In this document: one piece after another, positions 52,188 to 64,000 of the stretch
Layout: the number at the start of each line of letters is the position of its first letter
Numbering within the stretch: position 1 is the stretch's first letter
DNA from: Desulfobacterales bacterium
Lineage (GTDB): Bacteria > Desulfobacterota > Desulfobacteria > Desulfobacterales > SURF-7
Reading direction: 5' to 3'
Assembly (NCBI GenBank): GCA_028277765.1
Contig: JANQFQ010000042.1
Coordinates: 1 to 64,000 of the forward strand
DNA length: 64,000 nt
Notes under the pieces: model-generated
What the model was told of the DNA's origin: nothing
The model's database searches: none
The model's input: only the letters and a program-made list of their open reading frames with translations
Translations under genes and position numbers: made by a program

Positions 52188-55100
52188 ATGTTTCTGCCTG
52201 AGATCGTTTTGATCCTTGTATGTCTGGCGAGCATCATCACCCTGTTTATTCATCATTTAACACCTAAAACTTCCTATTGCCCGATTAAATCAAAAAAAAC
52301 AGACAGGATTAAACACATCAGCTGTTTGGTAATTACAGGCCTGATATTCTTTAGCATATCTGATGCCTATGGCGCATCCACATCAGGATATTCCGAATAT
52401 TATATTCCAGGTGATGAAGAGAATATGCTCCGGATTTTTCAAGAAATCGGTGGCGCCGTGGGAAATAACATGCATTCGGTGATTTCCGTTACAGCCTGGT
52501 CTGACAATACAATTGTTTATTATGATCACTGGGAGACCGGCGGGTACGATTTTGATCCGGACAATCCCGGCGCTACAGCCGATGAAATCCAAGTGCTTGC
52601 CAATAAAGGGGACAGTTATACGTTTACAAGTTCAAATATCCCTGCAAACCCGCGGGTTCCAGCAGACGAATATTATGACGGGATGGATTATATTTATGTG
52701 GCTGGAGGGGCTGCAACCGTATGCAGGGCCAGCTGGACAGAAACAGCCGGACCTAATCTATCCCTGGCCTGGGAAGTCTACCCGGTCAGGCCCCAGCTGA
52801 CCACCTATATCCTCCCCTTTGGACAAGACCTGGATAGGAATGACGGTCTGGATGATTTTGAACGGGTTTTTGCCCTGGCACAGGCCACCCAGGATAACAC
52901 GGTCGTCACTGTTGATTATGATGGGGATGGTAATGCTGACAATATTGACCCCAACCGGGACGATGACTGCACTGACCAGGTTTCATCCGTTACCCTGATG
53001 GAGGGAGAAGTTTTTCTTTTGGATGATGATTGTATTTGTCCCACCACAGATTCTCTTGATACAGGAACAGTTATCCAGGGATCTGAAACCCTGCAGGTTC
53101 AGTATGTGATAGGAGACGAAGGAACCACCTATGAAATCAGGGGCATGAGTTCATTTCCAAGGGGTTTCTGGGATAATGAATATTACGCGCCTGTGGACAG
53201 CGCCAATGTTGGCAATGATCCCACGGACGTCTATCTCCACAATCCTCATTCAACACCCCTTACCATCGAATATGAAACATCTTCAGTCTCAGGCAATTTT
53301 GTTGTTGACGCCAATGACACCAGCTCCTTTAACGCGGAAACCGGAAGTTATGCGCCGCAGAATTCCGCGCTCTATCTGAGTGCGGATGACGTATTTTGGG
53401 GAGTTTCCACTATTGACTATGAAGGCACCACACACGACTGGGGATACAGCCTGGTCCCGGCCTTTCTCCTTGAAAACGAACATTACATGGGATGGGCGCC
53501 AAGCTCTTATCCTCTTAATGTTGCTAACGCGGATGATTCAGGTATTTTTATTGCCACTGCCCAGGACAATACCCGGGTATATGTGGATATGGACAATGAC
53601 GGCACTGCTGATGCAACTTATGACATGGACCGTCTGGATACCCAGTATGTAACTGATGCAGACGCTGACATTTCTGACACCAATGTCTGGGCAACTGGCG
53701 CATATACCATTGCCTACGGCCAGAATCCTGATACAGCTGCAACCGGCAACCCTGCCCTGGATGTGGGGTATACCACGCTGCCGGGCATCGGATTTATCGA
53801 CCTGGTGCTCACAGCCGAGATCACTGCTGACCCGGTTATCGTCCCGACCGCTGCAGGTTCTCAGTCCACTTATACCATCGTGGTGGGATCCCATAATTTT
53901 ACCGTGAATGATATCAACATATACGACTATCTTCCCACAGGATGGCAGTATGTTTCAGGCACCACCACTATCACCCTCGCAGACATGAGCCAGATCACCG
54001 GCGCCTCTGCTGACCCCAATGAATATATTGCCTATCAGGACACGTTCGAAACACAGGCATATAATAGGAACATGGACAATCTGCCTGTAGGTACTAACTG
54101 GGCAACCAACTGGCTTGAAGAAGGCGAAGCAAGCAATCCAGCTGCCGGGCGAATACGGATTATCAATGATGGCGGCACTGGTGTTCTAAGATTAAATAGA
54201 AACAACAGAGCCATTGCGCGCATTGCTGATCTATCCGGATATACCAAGGTTACTCTCAGCTTTGATTACCGTCGTGTAAATCTTGAAGATGCTGATGACG
54301 GGGCAGTCTGTGAAGTTTGCATGGACGGTTCCGGCGATCCGGTTACCTGCAATGATCCGGGAAGTTGGACCCAGGTTGTCAGTATTCCCGGCCCAACCAA
54401 TGATGCTACATATCAGCCTTATGAAGTAGACCTGAACACCCTCCTGCCTGATGTAAATTCCGCCACCTTTGCAATCCGGTTTTCCACATACGGCAGCGGC
54501 AGCGACGCCGGAGACCACGTCCGATTTGATAATATTCGATTGGATACCCCCTCCCTCACATGGCCGGACACACAACTTGACAACATGGGCGAAAACCAGG
54601 AGATTACCATTGAATTTACTGCGGAAACCACACAGGTCTTCAGCACCGGTGACATTACCCGTAATTACGTGGAAGCAACCGGAGACCGGTCAGTGGGAGC
54701 CGTCACCCAGACCTTTACAACCTCGAATTTTGCCTTTAACAGCTTCGGTGACATGGAAGTATCCATATCGTCAAACGCCGCAGACCCTCTTTATCCAAGT
54801 GACCAGTATACCTATACCGTCGTTGTAACCAACCCCGCGTCTGCTTCCGGAAGCCTTACCGGGATTGCCATATATGATCCCCTTCCGAACGGTGTCACCT
54901 ATGTGGACGGGTCCTCTTACATTGACCATAGCACCGCAGGACCGCCGACCACCTTCTTTTACGATTTTGAATCCGGCGCCCAGGGATTTACTGTCGGGGC
55001 AACAGACGGGACCCCCGCCATGAACTGGGAACTGGGTAATCCCACAAACCGGAATCCCCTTAACAGCGGTAAGTGCGGCGCTAACTGCTTCGGCAATGGA

Positions 55101-58100
55101 GGGCCGGAAGACGATCACACCTCCGGGGCTGGTGTCAACTGCTGGGGCACGGACTTGGACGACCTTTACTCGAACGATATTAATACTGTTCCCGGTATCT
55201 TTCTATACTCTCCCACCTATGATCTTTCCTCCTATGTCACGGTTGAACTCTCTTTCTGGCAATGGCTCGAAATAGAAGGCAACCCCTATGATTACGCCTA
55301 CCTCCAGCGAAATGTCAATGGAGCAGGCTGGACCAATATATGGGTATACGGTGACGTCGGCAGTGAAGGTAATCGGGCGGATAACGGATGGACCGAGGAT
55401 GTTCATGATGCATCAGCCTACGCTGCCGGCCAGGGCGCGGTGCAATGGCGCTGGATGATACAGACTGATAACATGTGGCAATGGGCAGGATGGTCTGTTG
55501 ATGATGTCACCGTCACCGCCACAACAACTGCAAGCGCCGGTGACGGACCTGGCGGAGATCCTCCAAATTTTGTGAGCAAAGATGACGGCTATGTTCTGGC
55601 ACCGGGAGAAACATTAACCCTGACATTTGACGTAACCGTGAATGACCCCCTGGAAACCGGTATAGAGGAAATAACAAATACAGCCTATGCTAATTCCAAC
55701 GAAATCATCCTGCCCATAAGCGACTCAGTGACCGACATTGTGGTCAATCCATCCACTGAAAGCTGTGAAGTCGGCGGCAGGGTATGGCTGGATGAAGACG
55801 GCGATGCTGTGGAGGATGTTGGTGAAGCTGGCATCTCCAATGTGGAAGTAACGCTCAGGGACGAGTTCGGCACCCCCATTGATGTAGATATTACTGATAC
55901 TAACGGCAACTATCTGTTTACGGATGTTGCGGCTGGTGATGACTATTACGTGGAAATCACTGACAACCTGCGGGGAGGATTGGTTCAGAGCGCGCCTGTG
56001 GGACATAGTGACGACCGTACCGACCCCTTTGATTTGTCACCTGGCGACGAAAAACTCGATGCCGTCCTTGGGTACGATAATGCTCCGGGCACAGCCACCA
56101 TCGGCGGCCTGATATGGAGTGATGACGATGCTGATACCGTGCGCGACGCCGGTGAACCTGGCCTGGGAGGGATTACTGTTGAACTGTGGCTAGATAGAGA
56201 TGATGATAGTGCCTATGAGCCCTCAGGTGATGACGCACCTGTTCTGACAACACAGACAACAGCCGCGGACGGCAGCTATATGTTTACCGGTGTAACTGCA
56301 AGCGGAACCGAGAACTACTTTGTCAATGTGGATGAATCACAGACAGCCCTTACCGATTATACGGCAACCACCGTTAGCCTATACTCGTTTATAGATGTAG
56401 ACGCAGGAGACGCCCTGCTTAATTATAATATGGGTTTTCAGAACACCGGCGGTACGGCTTTTTCTATCAAAAGCAGGATATGGCGTGATGAAAACAACGA
56501 TCTGGAAGATGACGGTGAAAACGGCATCTCCGGGGTTACCGTGGATCTATTAGATGCCAGCGAAAATGTGATCGCCACAACCACCACAGATGTAGATGGA
56601 TATTTTATCTTTACTGGCGTACATGGTGATAATAACGATTATACAATAAAAATTACTGACACCAGCGGCGTGTTGGACGATTATTACGGCATCACTCCAG
56701 CAGCCATCGCAAACGAAAAAGATATTATTGATCTTAGCGCCAATGTTGATGATACCGTGGAACCGGATGAACCGAGCTTTGGCTATGATATTGCAAAGAG
56801 CATTGGCGGCAATGTATTTAATGACACCAATAGTGACGGTGATCAGGATGATGGGGAGCCGGGCATCAGCGGTGTTGCTGTGGAACTGTGGCTTGATATG
56901 GATTCTGACGGACTCTTTGAACCAGCAGGAGATGATTCCGCGCAGACTCCATCGTCTGACACAACTGATGGCAGCGGCGGTTATATCTTTTCAGGCCTGG
57001 ATGACGGCACCTATTTTGTTCATATTGATGATACTGCGGCACCAATAGATGCATATGATACCCTTACCACCCCTGATGATGACCTAGCAGCAACAGGCCA
57101 CCAGCAGGAGGAGGTCATTTCAGGCGGAAACAGCTCCCTTGACACTGATTTTGGCTATACCAATTCAGTAACATGGGACATGTCAGGCACTATCTGGGAT
57201 GATGAAAACGATGATGGCGCAGGCTGGGGATCTGAACCCGGGCTGGAAAACGTAACCTTAGAGCTTTACCTGGATGACGGTGACAGTGCCTATGATGCCG
57301 GCGACACCCTTGTCACATCAGCGACCACAGATTCGAACGGAGATTATTCTTTCAGCGCACAGCCGCCTGACAACTACATTATCCTTGTCACAGATGACAA
57401 CAGTGTGCTGACCGGATACGACCCCACTTATGAAAAAACAGAAGGGACCACCTCCCCGTTTAACGGCTGGGAATTCATGAGCCTGGGGAGTGACATCAGC
57501 GATCTACATTTTGGATATAACAATCCTGTCCCGCTCCATGTTATCATATCCGCCTTTAGGGCTTATACAGATGACGACGATGTCATTATCGAATGGGATA
57601 CTGCCTCAGAAACCGGCACACTCGGTTTTGACCTGTACCGCAAGGAGAGGCATAAAGGCAGCCGCTACATAAAGATTAACGACCAGCTTTTACCCGGTCT
57701 TCTGGTATCACGCGAAGGCGGAACTTATAGGTATGCTGACACGACCGCCAAGTCTGGTAAAATCTATAAATATAAGATTATAGAAGTTGAAGTTAAAGGG
57801 AAGAGACGCTCTTACGGTCCGTTTATAGTTGCAGTAGACGGAAAAGGGGTTGACTACACCTATGAGTCAACATCATGGTGGCGGACGGAAAGACGCGCGC
57901 GTTTTAAACATATAAAAGACCTAAAATACAGCAGAAAAGTCCGCAAGCTTTCCCATTCAGCAAAAGTCCGGAATGATTCTAGAAAGGCCTGGAGAAAAAC
58001 TGCCAGGAGTTTAAAAAAATATCGAAAAGGGAATAAGCTGAAAATCGCTGTTCAAGAAAGCGGTCTGCACTATATCAGCGCTACTGAAATTGCTGACGCG

Positions 58101-60095
58101 CTGAAAATCAGGCTCAACTGGGCTAAAAGATTGATAAGAGCCAATGCGATAAGTTTAGAGAATAAAGGAGTAAAAACCGCCTATATGCCTGCTCACGGAA
58201 ACGACGGTATCTATTTCTACGGTGAAGCTGTGGATAGTATATATACAGACAAAAATATTTACTGGCTTAAAAAACGAAGAAGGGGTTTAAGGATGACCGC
58301 CTCTGAAGGGGACGTTCTTTTTCCTGCAGATTCCAATGTCGTATATAGTGAGACAATTCATCTTGAGGAGGATATCTACCCGGTTCTCCAGATAAATGCC
58401 GATCCTCAATCTGATTACTGGAGATGGGATTATGTTTACAGCGGCTATCCTGGGATGGAGAGTAAAACATTTACGTTCACTGCTGATGCAAGGGTGGATA
58501 TTTCATACCCCGCGTCAATAGCAGTACATCTTCAGGCCGCAGCAGACATTTCCAGCAATACTGACCACCATGTCAGGGTCAGCATAAACGGAACAGATAT
58601 ACTTGAGGAACTCTGGGACGGGACAGAACCGGTCACCTTTAATGCTTATTTTGATCAGCTTATTCTTAATGACGGTGATAACACAATAGAAGTAACAGGC
58701 ATTCTCAACTCAGGAATACCCTATAGTATTTTTTATATTGATTCCTTTGACCTGACATATCAGCGATACTACCGGGCCAGGGACAACGCCCTTACGATCA
58801 CTGCTGAAAACACGAACACGGTCACAGTCCGCGGTTTTACAGGACAGAATGTGATGGTGTTCGATATTACTGAACCGACCAGGCCTAAAATTGTCGAGAA
58901 TCTGATTGAAACAGAAGATGACGGCAGTTTTAGCACAAGTTTTCTCCCGGCAGGTTCAGGCGCAAGCTACTTGACAATTGAAATGGATTCTGTTCTTGAA
59001 CCGGTTTCAATACTGGCGGACACTCCCTCCAAGCTGAAAAGAAGGTTTAACCGCGCGGAGTATGTTGTTATCGTACCCCATGAACTAAAAGAGGCTGCGC
59101 GTTCCCTGGTCGAATACCGCAAATCCTGTGGATACAGATCAATGCTTGTGGATCTTGAAGATATCATGGATGAATTTAATTACGGTCTGTCAAGCCCAGA
59201 AGCAATCAGGGACTTTCTGTCTCATGCTTACAATAGATGGAGAATACCGCCTGCTTACGTGGTGCTTGCCGGTGAAGGGACCTTTGACTATAAAGATGTA
59301 AAAAAATATGGTGACAATCTGATCCCTGTCATGATAGTAAATACACCATACGGTCTTTCTACTTCTGACAACCGTTTTGCAGATATAATAGGAGATGACC
59401 GTGTACCTGAAATAGCTGTCGGAAGGCTTCCTGCTGCCACACCCGATGAATTGACAACAATGATTGACAAGATTAAGAATTATGAAGACAGTAGCGGCGA
59501 TGACTGGTCAGACCGTGTTATGATGATGGCTGACGATCCTGATGAAGGGGGCAACTTCCCGGCGGACAGTGATGATCTGGCTGAGATTATCCCGCTGGAT
59601 TACAGGGTCGACTATATCTATCTGTATGAACATACAGTGGAAGAGGCCAGACAACTTGTGCTGGAAGGTATCAATGACGGTGCCCTGATCGTCAATTATT
59701 TGGGACATGGGGCTGTGAACCGGCTGGCCCAGGAAGGGATGCTCATGACTGAAGATGTACCGTCCTTATTCAATGAAGAAAGGCTTCCGGTGATAACTGC
59801 AATGACCTGCGTTGCCGGGCAGTTCGCCATACCCGGATATGATTCAATAAGCGAAGCGCTTGTCCTGCGCGACAATGGCGGTGCCATCGCCACATGGTCA
59901 CCAACCGGACTGACATTAAATACAGAGGGCAAGGCCCTTGATGAAGAATTTTTCACATCACTTTTTATAGATAAAGACTCAATTCTCGGGGATGCGGTTC
60001 TTAAAGCAATCACCAGATACAGCACGGGCAAAAGGAAAAAATATATTATCGATATTTTTAGTCTGCTCGGGGATCCGGCATTGCAGATGAGATAA
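52188..60095 (+). CDS. Giant secreted protein with SdrD-like B repeats and C-terminal C25 (gingipain-type) peptidase
   Basis: 2635 residues. A membrane segment at 5-25 and a signal-like segment at 43-63 (LVITGLIFFSISDAYGA) indicate export. Then a beta-rich domain resembling IgGFc-binding/surface proteins (about 64-540), two DUF11-like repeats (from about 540 and 855), jelly-roll-like inserts, five SdrD-B-type Ca-binding repeats (starting near 1192, 1302, 1424, 1536, 1662), a FN3-like unit (about 1783-1880), a C25 pro-region, and a C25 peptidase (about 2287-2635). Catalytic His2507 in NYLGHGAV and Cys2541 in MTCVAGQF are 34 apart, as in gingipains. No sortase or T9SS C-terminal signal is seen. 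GGAGGG precedes the ATG; the PqqD gene begins 55 bp after its stop. Surface adhesin-protease; link to the RiPP genes is inferred. Confidence 0.85.
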   Translation: MFLPEIVLILVCLASIITLFIHHLTPKTSYCPIKSKKTDRIKHISCLVITGLIFFSISDAYGASTSGYSEYYIPGDEENMLRIFQEIGGAVGNNMHSVISVTAWSDNTIVYYDHWETGGYDFDPDNPGATADEIQVLANKGDSYTFTSSNIPANPRVPADEYYDGMDYIYVAGGAATVCRASWTETAGPNLSLAWEVYPVRPQLTTYILPFGQDLDRNDGLDDFERVFALAQATQDNTVVTVDYDGDGNADNIDPNRDDDCTDQVSSVTLMEGEVFLLDDDCICPTTDSLDTGTVIQGSETLQVQYVIGDEGTTYEIRGMSSFPRGFWDNEYYAPVDSANVGNDPTDVYLHNPHSTPLTIEYETSSVSGNFVVDANDTSSFNAETGSYAPQNSALYLSADDVFWGVSTIDYEGTTHDWGYSLVPAFLLENEHYMGWAPSSYPLNVANADDSGIFIATAQDNTRVYVDMDNDGTADATYDMDRLDTQYVTDADADISDTNVWATGAYTIAYGQNPDTAATGNPALDVGYTTLPGIGFIDLVLTAEITADPVIVPTAAGSQSTYTIVVGSHNFTVNDINIYDYLPTGWQYVSGTTTITLADMSQITGASADPNEYIAYQDTFETQAYNRNMDNLPVGTNWATNWLEEGEASNPAAGRIRIINDGGTGVLRLNRNNRAIARIADLSGYTKVTLSFDYRRVNLEDADDGAVCEVCMDGSGDPVTCNDPGSWTQVVSIPGPTNDATYQPYEVDLNTLLPDVNSATFAIRFSTYGSGSDAGDHVRFDNIRLDTPSLTWPDTQLDNMGENQEITIEFTAETTQVFSTGDITRNYVEATGDRSVGAVTQTFTTSNFAFNSFGDMEVSISSNAADPLYPSDQYTYTVVVTNPASASGSLTGIAIYDPLPNGVTYVDGSSYIDHSTAGPPTTFFYDFESGAQGFTVGATDGTPAMNWELGNPTNRNPLNSGKCGANCFGNGGPEDDHTSGAGVNCWGTDLDDLYSNDINTVPGIFLYSPTYDLSSYVTVELSFWQWLEIEGNPYDYAYLQRNVNGAGWTNIWVYGDVGSEGNRADNGWTEDVHDASAYAAGQGAVQWRWMIQTDNMWQWAGWSVDDVTVTATTTASAGDGPGGDPPNFVSKDDGYVLAPGETLTLTFDVTVNDPLETGIEEITNTAYANSNEIILPISDSVTDIVVNPSTESCEVGGRVWLDEDGDAVEDVGEAGISNVEVTLRDEFGTPIDVDITDTNGNYLFTDVAAGDDYYVEITDNLRGGLVQSAPVGHSDDRTDPFDLSPGDEKLDAVLGYDNAPGTATIGGLIWSDDDADTVRDAGEPGLGGITVELWLDRDDDSAYEPSGDDAPVLTTQTTAADGSYMFTGVTASGTENYFVNVDESQTALTDYTATTVSLYSFIDVDAGDALLNYNMGFQNTGGTAFSIKSRIWRDENNDLEDDGENGISGVTVDLLDASENVIATTTTDVDGYFIFTGVHGDNNDYTIKITDTSGVLDDYYGITPAAIANEKDIIDLSANVDDTVEPDEPSFGYDIAKSIGGNVFNDTNSDGDQDDGEPGISGVAVELWLDMDSDGLFEPAGDDSAQTPSSDTTDGSGGYIFSGLDDGTYFVHIDDTAAPIDAYDTLTTPDDDLAATGHQQEEVISGGNSSLDTDFGYTNSVTWDMSGTIWDDENDDGAGWGSEPGLENVTLELYLDDGDSAYDAGDTLVTSATTDSNGDYSFSAQPPDNYIILVTDDNSVLTGYDPTYEKTEGTTSPFNGWEFMSLGSDISDLHFGYNNPVPLHVIISAFRAYTDDDDVIIEWDTASETGTLGFDLYRKERHKGSRYIKINDQLLPGLLVSREGGTYRYADTTAKSGKIYKYKIIEVEVKGKRRSYGPFIVAVDGKGVDYTYESTSWWRTERRARFKHIKDLKYSRKVRKLSHSAKVRNDSRKAWRKTARSLKKYRKGNKLKIAVQESGLHYISATEIADALKIRLNWAKRLIRANAISLENKGVKTAYMPAHGNDGIYFYGEAVDSIYTDKNIYWLKKRRRGLRMTASEGDVLFPADSNVVYSETIHLEEDIYPVLQINADPQSDYWRWDYVYSGYPGMESKTFTFTADARVDISYPASIAVHLQAAADISSNTDHHVRVSINGTDILEELWDGTEPVTFNAYFDQLILNDGDNTIEVTGILNSGIPYSIFYIDSFDLTYQRYYRARDNALTITAENTNTVTVRGFTGQNVMVFDITEPTRPKIVENLIETEDDGSFSTSFLPAGSGASYLTIEMDSVLEPVSILADTPSKLKRRFNRAEYVVIVPHELKEAARSLVEYRKSCGYRSMLVDLEDIMDEFNYGLSSPEAIRDFLSHAYNRWRIPPAYVVLAGEGTFDYKDVKKYGDNLIPVMIVNTPYGLSTSDNRFADIIGDDRVPEIAVGRLPAATPDELTTMIDKIKNYEDSSGDDWSDRVMMMADDPDEGGNFPADSDDLAEIIPLDYRVDYIYLYEHTVEEARQLVLEGINDGALIVNYLGHGAVNRLAQEGMLMTEDVPSLFNEERLPVITAMTCVAGQFAIPGYDSISEALVLRDNGGAIATWSPTGLTLNTEGKALDEEFFTSLFIDKDSILGDAVLKAITRYSTGKRKKYIIDIFSLLGDPALQMR
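55765..57530 (+). repeat. Five tandem SdrD-like B domain repeats (coding)
   Basis: Each unit of about 110-125 residues begins with a glycine-Xaa-hydrophobic-W/F stretch (GGRVWLDEDGD, GGLIWSDDDAD, KSRIWRDENND, GGNVFNDTNSD, SGTIWDDENDD), contains a DxDxDG-like loop and ends before a YxFTG/FSG turn. The Asp-rich loops are calcium sites in SdrD. Five copies are visible in sequence; nucleotide identity between them is modest, so they are old duplications. Confidence 0.75.
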
Positions 60096-60150: not shown

Positions 60151-60465
60151 ATGAAACAGGATGTTCCCATATGGGATAATGTCTATAAAAAGAAAGATGA
60201 TATTGTTTCTCGGGAGATAGCAGGAGAAGCTATACTGGTCCCAATACGCGGTAAGCTGGTTGATATGCAGAAAATTTTTTCATTGGAAGACGTGGCTGAA
60301 TATATTTGGCAGAACCTTGACGGCAAGAACCGGCTTTCAGATATCAGCAGCCGTGTGTTGCAAGCATTTGACGTGGAAAAGGAGCGTGCTGAAACAGATC
60401 TCCTTGAATTCATAGACGAGCTTCTAAACGCTGAACTGATTGAAAAAGCAGGCTCTGAATCGTAA
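60151..60465 (+). CDS. PqqD-like RiPP recognition protein
   Basis: 104 residues. Hydrophobic core pattern of PqqD: residues 28-95 include LVPIRGKLVDMQKIFSLEDV, AEYIWQNLDGKNRLSDISSR and LLEFIDELLNAELIEKAG. PqqD proteins bind RiPP leader peptides and hand them to a radical SAM enzyme. 55 bp after the giant peptidase, 6 bp before the radical SAM gene. I would match it to the ScmD position of the SynChlorMet cassette. Confidence 0.85.
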   Translation: MKQDVPIWDNVYKKKDDIVSREIAGEAILVPIRGKLVDMQKIFSLEDVAEYIWQNLDGKNRLSDISSRVLQAFDVEKERAETDLLEFIDELLNAELIEKAGSES

Positions 60466-60471
60466 AAAGAG

Positions 60472-61590
60472 ATGGTTATGGACTGCACACAAACAGAATG
60501 GCTGAGCAATAAAGAGTATTTAGAGCTGTTCCATAAAAAGGTAGTCAGCCAAAGGATACCATTATCAGGCAGCATTGACCTTACATGGAAATGCAATCTG
60601 AACTGTGCTCACTGTTATATCAAAAGGAGCGCGAACACACAGCAGAATGCCAGGCGTGAATTGAATACATCCCAATGGATCAACATTATCGATGAAGTTA
60701 CTGATGCAGGATGCATCAGTTTTCTAATAACCGGCGGTGAACCCCTCATCAGAAAAGATTTTGCCGAAATATACACCCATGCCAAAACCAATGGCCTGCT
60801 GGTGACGATTTTCACAAACGGTACACTGATCAATAAAGACATACTGGAACTTTTTAAAGATCTCCCGCCCCGTACAGTCGAGATAACCCTTTATGGGGCA
60901 ACCCCTGAAACCTATGAAAAGATTACTGGCAGCAGGGAAGCATTTGATCAATGCATGCATGGCATTCACCAGCTTTTAGAAGCGAACATTCAAACAAAGT
61001 TAAAAACTATATTAATGTCTTTTAATTTCAAAGAGTTTCATGCTATAATGAAAATAGCTGATGATTTAAACCTTGATTTTCGATTTGATGCAGATATTTT
61101 CCCAGGCCTTGGCGGTAATATGGATCCGCTCAATGTACGGATAAACCCTCGGGAAGCAGTAGAGATAGAGTTCTCCGTCAAAAAAAGACATGAACAATGG
61201 TTCGAATTATTCAACAGAATGGATAATATATCTATCCCTGACACACTTTATAACTGCGGTACCGGATGCAGTACGTTTCATATAGACCCATACGGTAATC
61301 TTCAACCATGCTTGATGGTAAACAGTCTTACGTATAATATTTTAAAGGGGAGCTTTTTTAAAGGCTGGCATAATGTCATACCCGGCATAAAAGAAAAAAA
61401 AGCAAGCAAAGATTTTAAATGCAGAACATGTGATAAAATTCATCTATGCGGTTTTTGCCCCCCTTTTTTTAAAATGGAAACCGGAGCAGAAGAGACACCT
61501 TCTGAATTCTTGTGCGAGATCGGACATTGCCGGTATGAAAAGCTAAAGAGCATCTATGCGATGGAAAGCAGAGGTGCAGACCATGCATAA
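60472..61590 (+). CDS. Radical SAM/SPASM peptide-modifying enzyme
   Basis: 372 residues. Radical SAM motif CNLNCAHC (Cys41, Cys45, Cys48), GGEPLIRKDFAE for SAM, and a C-terminal SPASM region with cysteines in CGTGCSTF, PCLM, CRTCDKIHLCGFC and CEIGHC binding extra Fe-S clusters. PqqE-like; it should install a carbon-carbon or thioether crosslink in a ribosomal peptide. Its last 8 bases overlap the start of the candidate precursor gene. Corresponds to the ScmE position by gene order (my assignment). Confidence 0.92.
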   Translation: MVMDCTQTEWLSNKEYLELFHKKVVSQRIPLSGSIDLTWKCNLNCAHCYIKRSANTQQNARRELNTSQWINIIDEVTDAGCISFLITGGEPLIRKDFAEIYTHAKTNGLLVTIFTNGTLINKDILELFKDLPPRTVEITLYGATPETYEKITGSREAFDQCMHGIHQLLEANIQTKLKTILMSFNFKEFHAIMKIADDLNLDFRFDADIFPGLGGNMDPLNVRINPREAVEIEFSVKKRHEQWFELFNRMDNISIPDTLYNCGTGCSTFHIDPYGNLQPCLMVNSLTYNILKGSFFKGWHNVIPGIKEKKASKDFKCRTCDKIHLCGFCPPFFKMETGAEETPSEFLCEIGHCRYEKLKSIYAMESRGADHA

Positions 61591-61759
61591 AAATGATAGA
61601 GAAAAAAAAGAATATAAAAAACCAAGGCTAAGGACTATAGAGCTGGCAGCGGAAGAAGTCCTAGGTACCGGTTGCAAATCGCCTTCAGATGCTCCACTGA
61701 CTCCAGCCGCGCCGCCCAATTGTCTTGCAGGCGCACCTTGCTCAGGCATAGGATCATAA
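61583..61759 (+). CDS. Candidate RiPP precursor peptide, three cysteines
   Basis: 58 residues, ATG overlapping the radical SAM stop by 8 bp, GAGGTG 7 bases upstream. Lysine/arginine-rich leader (YKKPRLRTIELAAEEVLGTG) ending in a TG/GTG turn, then a Cys31, Cys47, Cys53 tail rich in Pro, Ala, Ser and Gly (CKSPSDAPLTPAAPPNCLAG, then APCSGIGS). Layout - hydrophobic IELAAEEVL leader plus small cysteine core - is that of substrates of SPASM enzymes that form thioether bonds. No other small peptide gene is seen in the cassette. Identity as precursor is inferred from position, size and composition. Confidence 0.75.
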   Translation: MHKNDREKKEYKKPRLRTIELAAEEVLGTGCKSPSDAPLTPAAPPNCLAGAPCSGIGS

Positions 61760-61812: not shown

Positions 61813-62694
61813 ATGGAAATCGCCGAAGTAAAATTTGAAATAATAAATAACACACATATCATATTTAAAGCTTCTGATATTGCCTATCATTCATTCATAA
61901 ATCCGGACAACAGCGGGATTTCACGGCCGCTCACGATAACAATCCACCTGCAGGTTGGGCCGCCTGATACCAGCAATTTGGAAACCGTATTTGACAGTGG
62001 CCTGTCATGGTCGCTATACCGTGACAAAAATAATTATATCATTTCCATTTATTCTCCTGCGTTTAAATCACCATTTAGGGTCGCAGATGTAAACCATACA
62101 TTTTCAGAAGCAACGATCTATTGTAATGAAGAATTGATACAGCAAAAAGATGGGAAAGCGGTTGCCATCAATCCGGTATGCTATCCCATTGATCAAATCC
62201 TGCTTATGCATATACTCGCTCCCAGGAAGGGGATGATAATCCACGCGGCCGGTGCCGGCATAGGAGGAAAAGGGTTTGTTTTCCCGGGTGTTTCAGGTGC
62301 TGGTAAAAGCACGCTCTCTTATCAGTTTTCAGGCAAAAAAAACATAACTCTTTTGAGCGATGACCGGATTGTTCTCAGGAAAATTGATGATCAGTTCAAG
62401 GCCTTTGGGACACCGTGGCCCGGCGAAGCACGCGTCGCCCTGAACAAACACTTTCCCCTTGAAGGTATCTTTTTTATCCACCACAGCAAAGAAGACGTTA
62501 TCAAAGAGCTTAAACCAGCTGAAGCTGTTAAGCGCCTAATGCCTGTTTCGTCCATACCCTGGTACGATCGTAAAGCAGTAACTGACATCCTCAGTTTCTG
62601 TGAAGATCTTGTTTCTAATATTCCCGCGTATGAATTGCACTTTAAGCCCGGCAAAGGGGTAGCAGACCTTCTAGAAGATTTCACCATCAAGTAA
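61813..62694 (+). CDS. HPr-kinase-like P-loop protein of the RiPP cassette
   Basis: 293 residues. The HprK-type P-loop PGVSGAGKSTLSYQF (Lys165) sits in the middle, with HAAGAGIGGKGFVF before it and LLSDDRIVLRK, GTPWPGEA and PWYDRKAVTDI after it. HprK-like proteins of this size accompany lasso and radical SAM peptide cassettes and are presumed to phosphorylate or shuttle the peptide; the true role is unknown. No clear ribosome site before the ATG. Corresponds to ScmC position by order (my assignment). Confidence 0.8.
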   Translation: MEIAEVKFEIINNTHIIFKASDIAYHSFINPDNSGISRPLTITIHLQVGPPDTSNLETVFDSGLSWSLYRDKNNYIISIYSPAFKSPFRVADVNHTFSEATIYCNEELIQQKDGKAVAINPVCYPIDQILLMHILAPRKGMIIHAAGAGIGGKGFVFPGVSGAGKSTLSYQFSGKKNITLLSDDRIVLRKIDDQFKAFGTPWPGEARVALNKHFPLEGIFFIHHSKEDVIKELKPAEAVKRLMPVSSIPWYDRKAVTDILSFCEDLVSNIPAYELHFKPGKGVADLLEDFTIK

Positions 62695-62777: not shown

Positions 62778-64000
62778 ATGTCAAAAGTAACTCCTGAAAA
62801 AATATACACTGTCCAACCGGATATTTCCGGGCGCATACTGGATGACAATAGAATTGTCCTTTTTAAAGCGGATTCCGAAACGGAAAAGGAGCTGAATCCT
62901 GCTGGATTATTCATCTGGCAGCGGCTGAACAAGGGCTATACGGTTAAAGCGATCGCTGCAGATATTTCAGACGCTTTTGAAACGATTACTCTAGACAGGG
63001 CTATAGAAGACACGTCTGTGTTTCTGGAGGATCTTCTCCGCCAGGGCTTTGCTGTGGAACACACCGATGCCATATCATCCCGAAAACCCTTAATCGAGTA
63101 TCCTCATGTTTCTGATGCGCCAAAGAGTATTGACATTTCACTTACCGGGAAATGTAATCTGTCGTGCAAATACTGTTTTTACGCTGATGCCATGCAGGCG
63201 AGAAAAGACCTGCCCAAAGAGGAGTGGTTCTCCTTTTTTGATGAACTCGGCAGCCTGTCTGTCCGTTCGGTCTGCCTGAGTGGCGGTGAAGTGTTTATCC
63301 TGCCGCACCTGTTTGAGATTATCGATTCCATCATCGCCAACCGTATGCGATATTCCATCTTAACAAACGGCTCGCTGATAACAGAAAAGATCATTGCAAA
63401 ATTTAAAAAAGGGAGAAGAAGGGCCAGGTTCAGCAATATTCAGGTTTCCCTGGACGGATCACGCCCTGAAATCCACGATAAAAGCAGGGGACAAGGCGCC
63501 TTTGAAAAAGCAGTCCGGGCATTAAGGCTCTTAAAGGAAGCGGGGTTGCCAGTAACCTCAAGGGTCACTGTAAACAGGCACAACGTGGATGATCTTGAGA
63601 ATATAGCGGCCCTTCTGCTTGATGATATCAATATCGCGGCCTTTGGCACAAATGACGCCATACCCATAGGAAAGGGGTGCAGCAACCAGGATGAGATTAT
63701 TCTTCAGCCGGAGCAGAAAATAAAAGCCATGAAAACCCTTGCCGACCTTGCTCAGAGATATAACGGAAGGATATCTGCCACAGCCGGCCCTCTTGCCAGA
63801 TGGCGAACCTACCATGACATGGAACACGCCATGGCCACAGGGGATAAAAATAAAAAGTGGCAGATGGGCCTTCTTTCAGCCTGCGGATGCGTGTTCAGCA
63901 AACTGTCAATCAATCATGACGGCATCATAACCCCGTGCAACATCCTTTCCACCCTCGAACTGGGGAGGATAAACACGGATTCCATTAAAACAATCTGGAA
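62778..64000 (+). CDS. PqqD-radical SAM fusion, partial at window end
   Basis: Runs off the window after 407 codons. Residues 1-95 form a PqqD-like leader-binding domain (ELNPAGLFIWQRLNKGYTVK, VFLEDLLRQGFAVE), then radical SAM motif CNLSCKYC (Cys126, Cys130, Cys133), LSGGEVFILPHL, and the start of a SPASM region (CGCVFSKLSINHDGIITPCN). A second maturase besides the 60472 gene suggests a two-step modification, as in ScmE/ScmF pairs. AAGG just before the ATG. The end of the enzyme is beyond the window. Confidence 0.9.
   Translation, partial: MSKVTPEKIYTVQPDISGRILDDNRIVLFKADSETEKELNPAGLFIWQRLNKGYTVKAIAADISDAFETITLDRAIEDTSVFLEDLLRQGFAVEHTDAISSRKPLIEYPHVSDAPKSIDISLTGKCNLSCKYCFYADAMQARKDLPKEEWFSFFDELGSLSVRSVCLSGGEVFILPHLFEIIDSIIANRMRYSILTNGSLITEKIIAKFKKGRRRARFSNIQVSLDGSRPEIHDKSRGQGAFEKAVRALRLLKEAGLPVTSRVTVNRHNVDDLENIAALLLDDINIAAFGTNDAIPIGKGCSNQDEIILQPEQKIKAMKTLADLAQRYNGRISATAGPLARWRTYHDMEHAMATGDKNKKWQMGLLSACGCVFSKLSINHDGIITPCNILSTLELGRINTDSIKTIW

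Follow-up and report, generated by a model that had tools for sequence, protein, structure and literature searches.

Two questions are raised by a 58-codon open reading frame lying between a radical SAM gene and an HprK-like gene in a Desulfobacterales genome: what does it encode, and which neighboring enzymes act on its product? We analyzed a window of 64,000 nucleotides (GenBank assembly GCA_028277765.1, contig JANQFQ010000042.1, positions 1 to 64,000). The earlier note had read the frame as a 58-residue peptide with Cys31, Cys47 and Cys53 whose gene shares 8 bp with the radical SAM gene and is followed by an HprK-like gene, and the same features were obtained when the sequence was read again; that note mentions neither the C-terminal Ser nor its connection with the kinase. 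The peptide's cassette has the following gene order.

52188 to 60095, forward strand: protein of 2635 residues that combines SdrD-B repeats with a C25 (gingipain-type) peptidase domain at its C-terminus (PF01364, E 1.3e-82, residues 2292-2634)
60151 to 60465, forward strand: PqqD-family (RRE) protein (PF05402, 57.0 bits, cut-off 23.4)
60472 to 61590, forward strand: radical SAM protein with SPASM-like cysteines, the proposed maturase (PF04055, E 1.1e-23)
61583 to 61759, forward strand: precursor peptide gene, 58 residues with three Cys and a C-terminal Ser, with homologs behind related radical SAM genes
61813 to 62694, forward strand: HprK-like kinase, the proposed C-terminal-Ser kinase (TIGR04355, E 5.5e-8, under cut-off)

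The 5′ end of the peptide gene lies within the end of the radical SAM gene, and the HprK-like gene begins 53 bp past its end. An AGAGG stretch is found 8 bases 5′ of the ATG at 61583, and this start was therefore preferred over the in-frame ATG at 61556. As sole query, the peptide matched 27 of 146 genomes sampled from relatives of the source organism (E ≤ 0.1, own genome included, the weakest matches being noise), so the frame is no chance ORF; the best match outside its own genus reached E 1.0e-12, and the better matches sit directly behind a radical SAM gene. The role of precursor in a PqqD/radical SAM cassette, as the earlier note had proposed, is thus borne out by homologs at the same place, and the similar frames that it suggested looking for were found. 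These share the pattern KKxYxKPxLxxIxLxAEEVLxxGCK ... C ... C ... GS in an alignment of 23 hand-picked sequences, window included (L009, which is incomplete, L013 and weaker matches were left out), in which all three Cys are conserved without exception. No NCBIfam or Pfam model matched the peptide, NCBIfam having been searched up to E 10, and the 23 aligned relatives gave at most chance-level scores with known RiPP models (best E 0.076 and 0.25). Judged by its sequence and setting, 61583-61759 is a RiPP precursor of a widespread, apparently undescribed family. Its landmarks are the following.

61613 to 61630, forward strand: YxxPxL-type leader motif, residues 11-16 (YKKPRL), the probable, predicted PqqD/RRE binding site
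61673 to 61741, forward strand: span of the conserved Cys codons (Cys31 61673-61675, Cys47 61721-61723, Cys53 61739-61741), based on Cys spacing compared in 88 three-Cys peptides
61754 to 61756, forward strand: codon TCA of the C-terminal Ser58, proposed as phosphorylation site from the conservation of Ser/Thr as last residue

An aromatic-xxP-x-hydrophobic leader motif was present in 112 of the 117 unique peptides collected at E ≤ 1e-3, 114 of which are complete. The available part of PMC10368454 describes the YxxPxL motif for lasso precursors. Cleavage by the C25 peptidase at the Lys following the first Cys was considered and is at most conceivable: this Lys occurs in 102/117 unique peptides with or without a C25 gene nearby and is therefore not C25-specific. 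A lipoprotein assignment was rejected; lipobox-like leaders precede the first Cys in some peptides, but the N-terminus is charged and holds no hydrophobic stretch. At one locus (L129, 5733-6074), two tandem precursor genes lie ahead of a single HprK-like gene.

The flanking enzymes were then compared with characterized models. Relatives of the radical SAM protein keep CxxxCxxC and seven C-terminal Cys invariant (15 sequences), and the Pfam SPASM model itself was unmatched by the window's protein, which also passed no maturase cut-off among the 25 NCBIfam models listed; its top NCBIfam scores were those of the heme-biosynthesis models AhbD/NirJ, far under their cut-offs. For the PqqD protein the best NCBIfam model was lasso_PqqD_Bac (37.7 bits, under the cut-off of 80). 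Together, the PqqD gene, the radical SAM gene with its extra Cys motif and the short conserved precursor are, as far as sequence can indicate, a PqqD/RRE-dependent radical SAM RiPP unit.

The radical SAM protein was matched in 35/146 genomes at E ≤ 1e-25, and gene order was followed in 95 loci, duplicates having been removed from the 100 examined that contain a radical SAM match. In the 81 whose downstream sequence extends for 1500 bp or more, the peptide was found within 700 bp in 63, the HprK-like gene within 1800 bp in 64 and both in 58; among the 68 loci with a single radical SAM gene, the counts were 59, 60 and 57, respectively. Loci without peptide or kinase include multi-radical-SAM cassettes, where the gene order is different. 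Among the 73 loci whose upstream sequence was long enough, PqqD was present in 67; an S24/S26-like protease was found in 46/65 loci and either an S24/S26-like or a C25 protease in 61/65. Since loci L061-L080 had been chosen through peptide or radical SAM matches and the 23-row alignment was itself selected, a leader-only model was applied to loci fetched by the radical SAM alignment alone (L081-L160, the best 80 matches of a scan of named genomes, from many phyla). It recovered the peptide in 46 of 64 loci overall and in 42 of 52 with a single radical SAM gene. A Ser-ending peptide stands beside an HprK-like gene in 49 loci among these best 80, carrying 19 origin labels, 17 of them phylum-level, a phylum count that may be inflated by mis-binning because most of the loci are MAG contigs. 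In nine unique proteins of ~660-720 residues, a radical SAM part belonging to this family is fused to an HprK part (L142, L143, L145, L146, L148, L149, L159, L160 and L228), tying both activities to one pathway. The source genome also holds a second, diverged cassette (L080, G000:C59, 3532-8245) with a WxKP-type peptide, two radical SAM genes, PqqD, an S26-like protein and an HprK-like gene.

Proteases and nucleotidyltransferases recur around these units; the figures for C25 and NTP_transf_5 are raw, uncorrected counts. The window's C25 protein carries SdrD_B at five stretches, and a C25 domain occurs upstream of the radical SAM gene in 18/73 loci and downstream in 7; the upstream placement was seen in 14 named loci with ten origin labels. 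One His (43/43 sequences) and one Cys (42/43) are kept in the C25 domain, which we take to be the catalytic pair. A role for the C25 protein as leader protease or delivery partner is a guess in either case. NTP_transf_5-like proteins were found with our own profile in 36/95 loci, on either strand, and Pfam confirmed NTP_transf_5 (PF14907) in 8 of the 91 neighbors scanned, six of them individually. None was seen beside the window's own cassette, and the second cassette of the genome (C59) has an NTP_transf_5-like gene at the edge of its contig stretch. The lasso proteins PsmN and BsfN presumably belong to PF14907; among the open-access matches listed, the accession was not tied to lasso peptides. 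At L090, L091 and L111 an S24/S26-like protease is fused to an NTP_transf_5-like domain, with a weak fourth case at L124. Adjoining the NTP_transf_5 gene of a related cassette, a gene at L102 (12127-13275) matches the arginine-methyltransferase oligomerization domains PF22528 and PF17286.

A further regular feature of the family lies at the C-terminus of the peptide. The last residue is Ser in 100 and Thr in 5 of the 114 complete unique peptides; among long ORFs of these loci, 7.1% end in Ser and 3.9% in Thr. The leader-only model, which is blind to the peptide end and so unable to favor Ser, gave 104 Ser and 9 Thr among 120 unique peptides, and 54 Ser and 2 Thr among 60 from the best 80 loci fetched by radical SAM. 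While the last residue is Ser/Thr in 113/120, the penultimate residue varies. With a Chloroflexota sample included, 110 of 137 unique peptides end in Ser, encoded by TCC (30), TCA (20), AGT (19), AGC (18), TCT (12) and TCG (11); as all six Ser codons are in use, it is the residue that is conserved and not the codon.

In the adjacent HprK-like protein, alignment shows H144, G159, G162, G164, K165, S166, D183, D184 and R185, so that the protein carries the His-Lys-Asp-Asp set (H144, K165, D183, D184) which the available part of PMC9266682 gives for lasso-peptide kinases; the related set H-G-G-G-K-S-D-D is given for BsfK in the available part of PMC10368454. As for lasso-type C-terminal-Ser kinases, the cognate precursor ends in Ser (Ser58). 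Overall similarity was low: the Pfam score was 17.3 bits (cut-off 33.3), a single-sequence search of the PDB returned only PEPCK at E 0.2 or worse, and a profile search reached HPr kinase at 2.6e-5, its top match and many others being unrelated P-loop proteins. An AlphaFold2 model (pLDDT 90) was searched with Foldseek, and all 50 matches listed were PEPCK or HPr kinase, with TM-scores of 0.29-0.43 by query length.

Kinase and peptide end were also compared in 92 unique adjacent pairs. Kinases with Arg or Lys at position 185 accompany peptides ending in Ser (71), Thr (4) or other residues (2), and those without accompany 0 Ser, 4 Thr and 11 other ends. The latter include a Chloroflexota clade in which E-D-Q/T/S replaces D-D-R and the peptide ends are various. 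In the Chloroflexota sample, 14 of 14 D183-D184-R/K kinases were paired with Ser/Thr ends (Ser in 11, Thr in 3), and the partner of one DEY kinase has Pro as its last residue; genomes G660 (L237, L254) and G888 (L232, L255) hold both kinase types, each with its own peptide. Residue 185 was picked after inspection of the data and changes once on a quick tree built with the columns concerned removed, so the covariation amounts to one event and is not significant. Asp183 alone was rejected as a predictor of the final Ser, being weaker than residue 185: 3 of 18 kinases without it are still paired with Ser peptides (L018, L147, L156). For two R-type kinases, the partner peptides end in Ile and Pro (L022, L147), and nearest-peptide pairing probably mis-assigned L123 and L142 in two of the pairing lists.

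The family, its gene order, the conserved residues, the final Ser/Thr, the kinase residues and the fusions are read directly from these comparisons; from them we infer the chemical steps and the role of the product. The PqqD protein (60151-60465) would bind the YKKPRL leader, and the radical SAM protein (60472-61590) would oxidatively modify the C-terminal half of the peptide, most likely linking at least some of its three conserved Cys to nearby residues. The HprK-like kinase would phosphorylate the C-terminal Ser58, which in many relatives could give an NTP_transf_5 nucleotidyltransferase a phosphate to extend. A peptidase would remove the leader, the C25 protein and an S24/S26-like protease being the candidates. 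We consider it probable that the precursor is processed in this way, with radical SAM modification of the Cys region, phosphorylation of the C-terminal Ser, leader binding by PqqD and removal by a peptidase. Counting against this reading are the weak sequence matches and low Foldseek TM-scores of the kinase, the single event behind the covariation with its exceptions at Asp183 and R/K, and the neighboring ScmC kinase described below, which goes with a Cys-rich peptide ending in Asn. In addition, according to the available part of PMC10368454, BsfK places its phosphate on Ser3 of a precursor whose last residue is Asp; since it does so with the same residues, the catalytic residues alone do not fix the site.

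The BsfK precedent also lends itself to a different account of the kinase, in which the radical SAM enzyme modifies the peptide and the HprK-like protein acts otherwise, on another Ser/Thr or in another nucleotide transfer, the final Ser serving recognition, export or ligation. The cores offer 12.4% Ser and 7.5% Thr as targets, and Chloroflexota-clade peptides without the final Ser still keep a P-loop protein. That same clade, however, has changed Asp183 and Arg185 as well, and Ser/Thr persists at the last position next to a variable penultimate one; we regard this account as unlikely.

PQQ and mycofactocin are cofactors made from precursor peptides, and the three Cys could similarly bind a metal or Fe–S cluster or form a disulfide, making the peptide a scaffold or cofactor precursor and not a cross-linked secreted product. 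The odd number of Cys, the wide spread in anaerobes and the AhbD/NirJ scores of the radical SAM protein point this way, but the sequences between the Cys vary freely, unlike those of a cofactor precursor, and protease genes recur; this proposal seems very improbable.

The HprK-like gene is followed by one further radical SAM gene, through which the remaining proposal enters.

62778 to 64000, forward strand: ScmE, a PqqD-radical SAM/SPASM protein that runs past the window (TIGR04250, 415.5 bits full length, cut-off 400)

That the peptide is the missing SynChlorMet (SCM) precursor, acted on by this ScmE, is hardly credible: the ScmE gene does follow the kinase gene in the same orientation at a distance of 83 bp, but an ScmA model exists and does not match the peptide, ScmD, ScmF and ScmC are encoded downstream together with a Cys-rich peptide of their own, placed between the latter two, and no genome is shared between the 26 other carriers of the peptide (E ≤ 0.1) and the 13 other carriers of a ScmE relative in the 146 sampled. 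The earlier note had provisionally assigned the peptide's own cassette to a SynChlorMet-like type and had taken that system to have no identified precursor. Both claims fail, as genuine SCM genes start only at 62778 and NCBIfam holds TIGR04252 (SCM_precur_ScmA). The cassette's own proteins fall far under the SCM cut-offs: PqqD scored 30.7 against 100 for ScmD, the HprK-like protein 27.7 against 125 for ScmC, and the radical SAM protein (60472-61590) 94.5 and 84.8 against 400 for ScmE and ScmF. ScmE relatives occur in 14/146 genomes (E ≤ 1e-60), of which only the source genome also has the peptide, and the ScmE gene probably lies outside the peptide's cassette.

Beyond the window, the contig encodes ScmD, ScmF, a Cys-rich peptide of 106 residues, ScmC, a protein resembling signal peptidases and an ABC transporter, with scores over the cut-offs for ScmF (563.4 against 400), ScmC (269.7 against 125) and ScmD (127.8 against 100). 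Window positions 62778-64000 and L002 6779-13825 (contig C64) thus hold a complete SynChlorMet cassette whose ScmE, ScmD, ScmF and ScmC all score above the NCBIfam cut-offs; a methyltransferase-like gene on the opposite strand (L002 8377-9663) breaks the series. The Cys/Gly/Ser-rich 106-residue peptide between ScmF and ScmC (L002 11693-12013) is the candidate ScmA of the genome; it had no NCBIfam match at E 0.1. Searched genome-wide, TIGR04252 found nothing at E ≤ 1; across 395 genomes of the phylum it gave two matches, both sub-cut-off, and the SCM peptide of L213 scored 28.6 against the ScmA cut-off of 35. The SCM cassette order in other genomes is PqqD-ScmE-ScmF-peptide-ScmC-S26. A Chlorobiaceae cassette (L147) was also tried as SynChlorMet and rejected, five of its proteins having no NCBIfam match at 1e-30.

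Radical SAM modification followed by phosphorylation of the C-terminal Ser remains the preferred reading. A bolder version of it, which we put forward tentatively and with less than even confidence, is a phylum-spanning RiPP class outside NCBIfam and Pfam whose crosslinked three-Cys peptide would be phosphorylated at the C-terminal Ser and capped with sugar or nucleotide where NTP_transf_5 is present, with Arg185 reading the terminal carboxylate and the giant gingipain-type surface protease as maturation or delivery partner. If the preferred reading is right, C-terminal Ser phosphorylation would be a tag common to unrelated RiPP chemistry, beyond lasso peptides, and radical SAM and kinase chemistry would converge on one peptide, even within one fused protein. 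The precursor model allows such clusters to be recognized and given a name across many phyla, most of them uncultured, and a defined peptide–enzyme set is available for expression; the cassette assignment is corrected, and a candidate ScmA of the adjoining SynChlorMet cassette is pointed out.

New here are the final Ser/Thr, the kept kinase residues, the radical SAM–kinase fusions, the NTP_transf_5-like companions and the joint change in Chloroflexota. No description of a radical SAM enzyme paired with a C-terminal-Ser kinase was found in the open-access literature searched, although one may be in print elsewhere, and the available parts of PMC7470986, PMC12710340 and PMC8326336 hold none of a radical SAM–kinase peptide pairing. 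The SCM cassette (TIGR04248-TIGR04252) likewise groups PqqD, radical SAM/SPASM and HprK-like proteins with a peptide that contains Cys; it differs in having two radical SAM enzymes (ScmE and ScmF), an ScmA with Cys/Gly repeats and, in two examples, no final Ser (the L002 peptide ends in Asn, that of L213 in Pro), and the SCM cut-offs are reached by none of the proteins encoded in the peptide's cassette. Sactipeptides and ranthipeptides share a Cys-containing precursor beside a radical SAM enzyme with SPASM-like Cys, whereas here an HprK-like kinase is attached, the peptide ends in Ser and a thioether is conjectural. A lasso peptide proper was rejected: the contig has no B2 transglutaminase-type peptidase (PF13471), the genome's only match being partial and on another contig, and no asparagine-synthetase-type cyclase was found among the contig proteins scanned or, for 91 neighbors of relatives, among the 25 most frequent of 104 Pfam families. 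The lasso kinase systems are nevertheless close in several respects. According to the available parts of PMC8498205, PMC9266682 and PMC10368454, the kinases PadeK, ThcoK, SyanK and PsmK and their precursors (paeninodin, pseudomycoidin) share the PqqD-type RRE, the YxxPxL-type leader, an HPr-kinase homolog with His-Lys-Asp-Asp, precursors ending in Ser and, in some clusters, a nucleotidyltransferase companion, as with pseudomycoidin, which has both an HPr-kinase-type kinase and a nucleotidyltransferase (PMC8498205). In the present family, by contrast, a radical SAM protein replaces the leader peptidase and the cyclase, and the peptide carries three conserved Cys.
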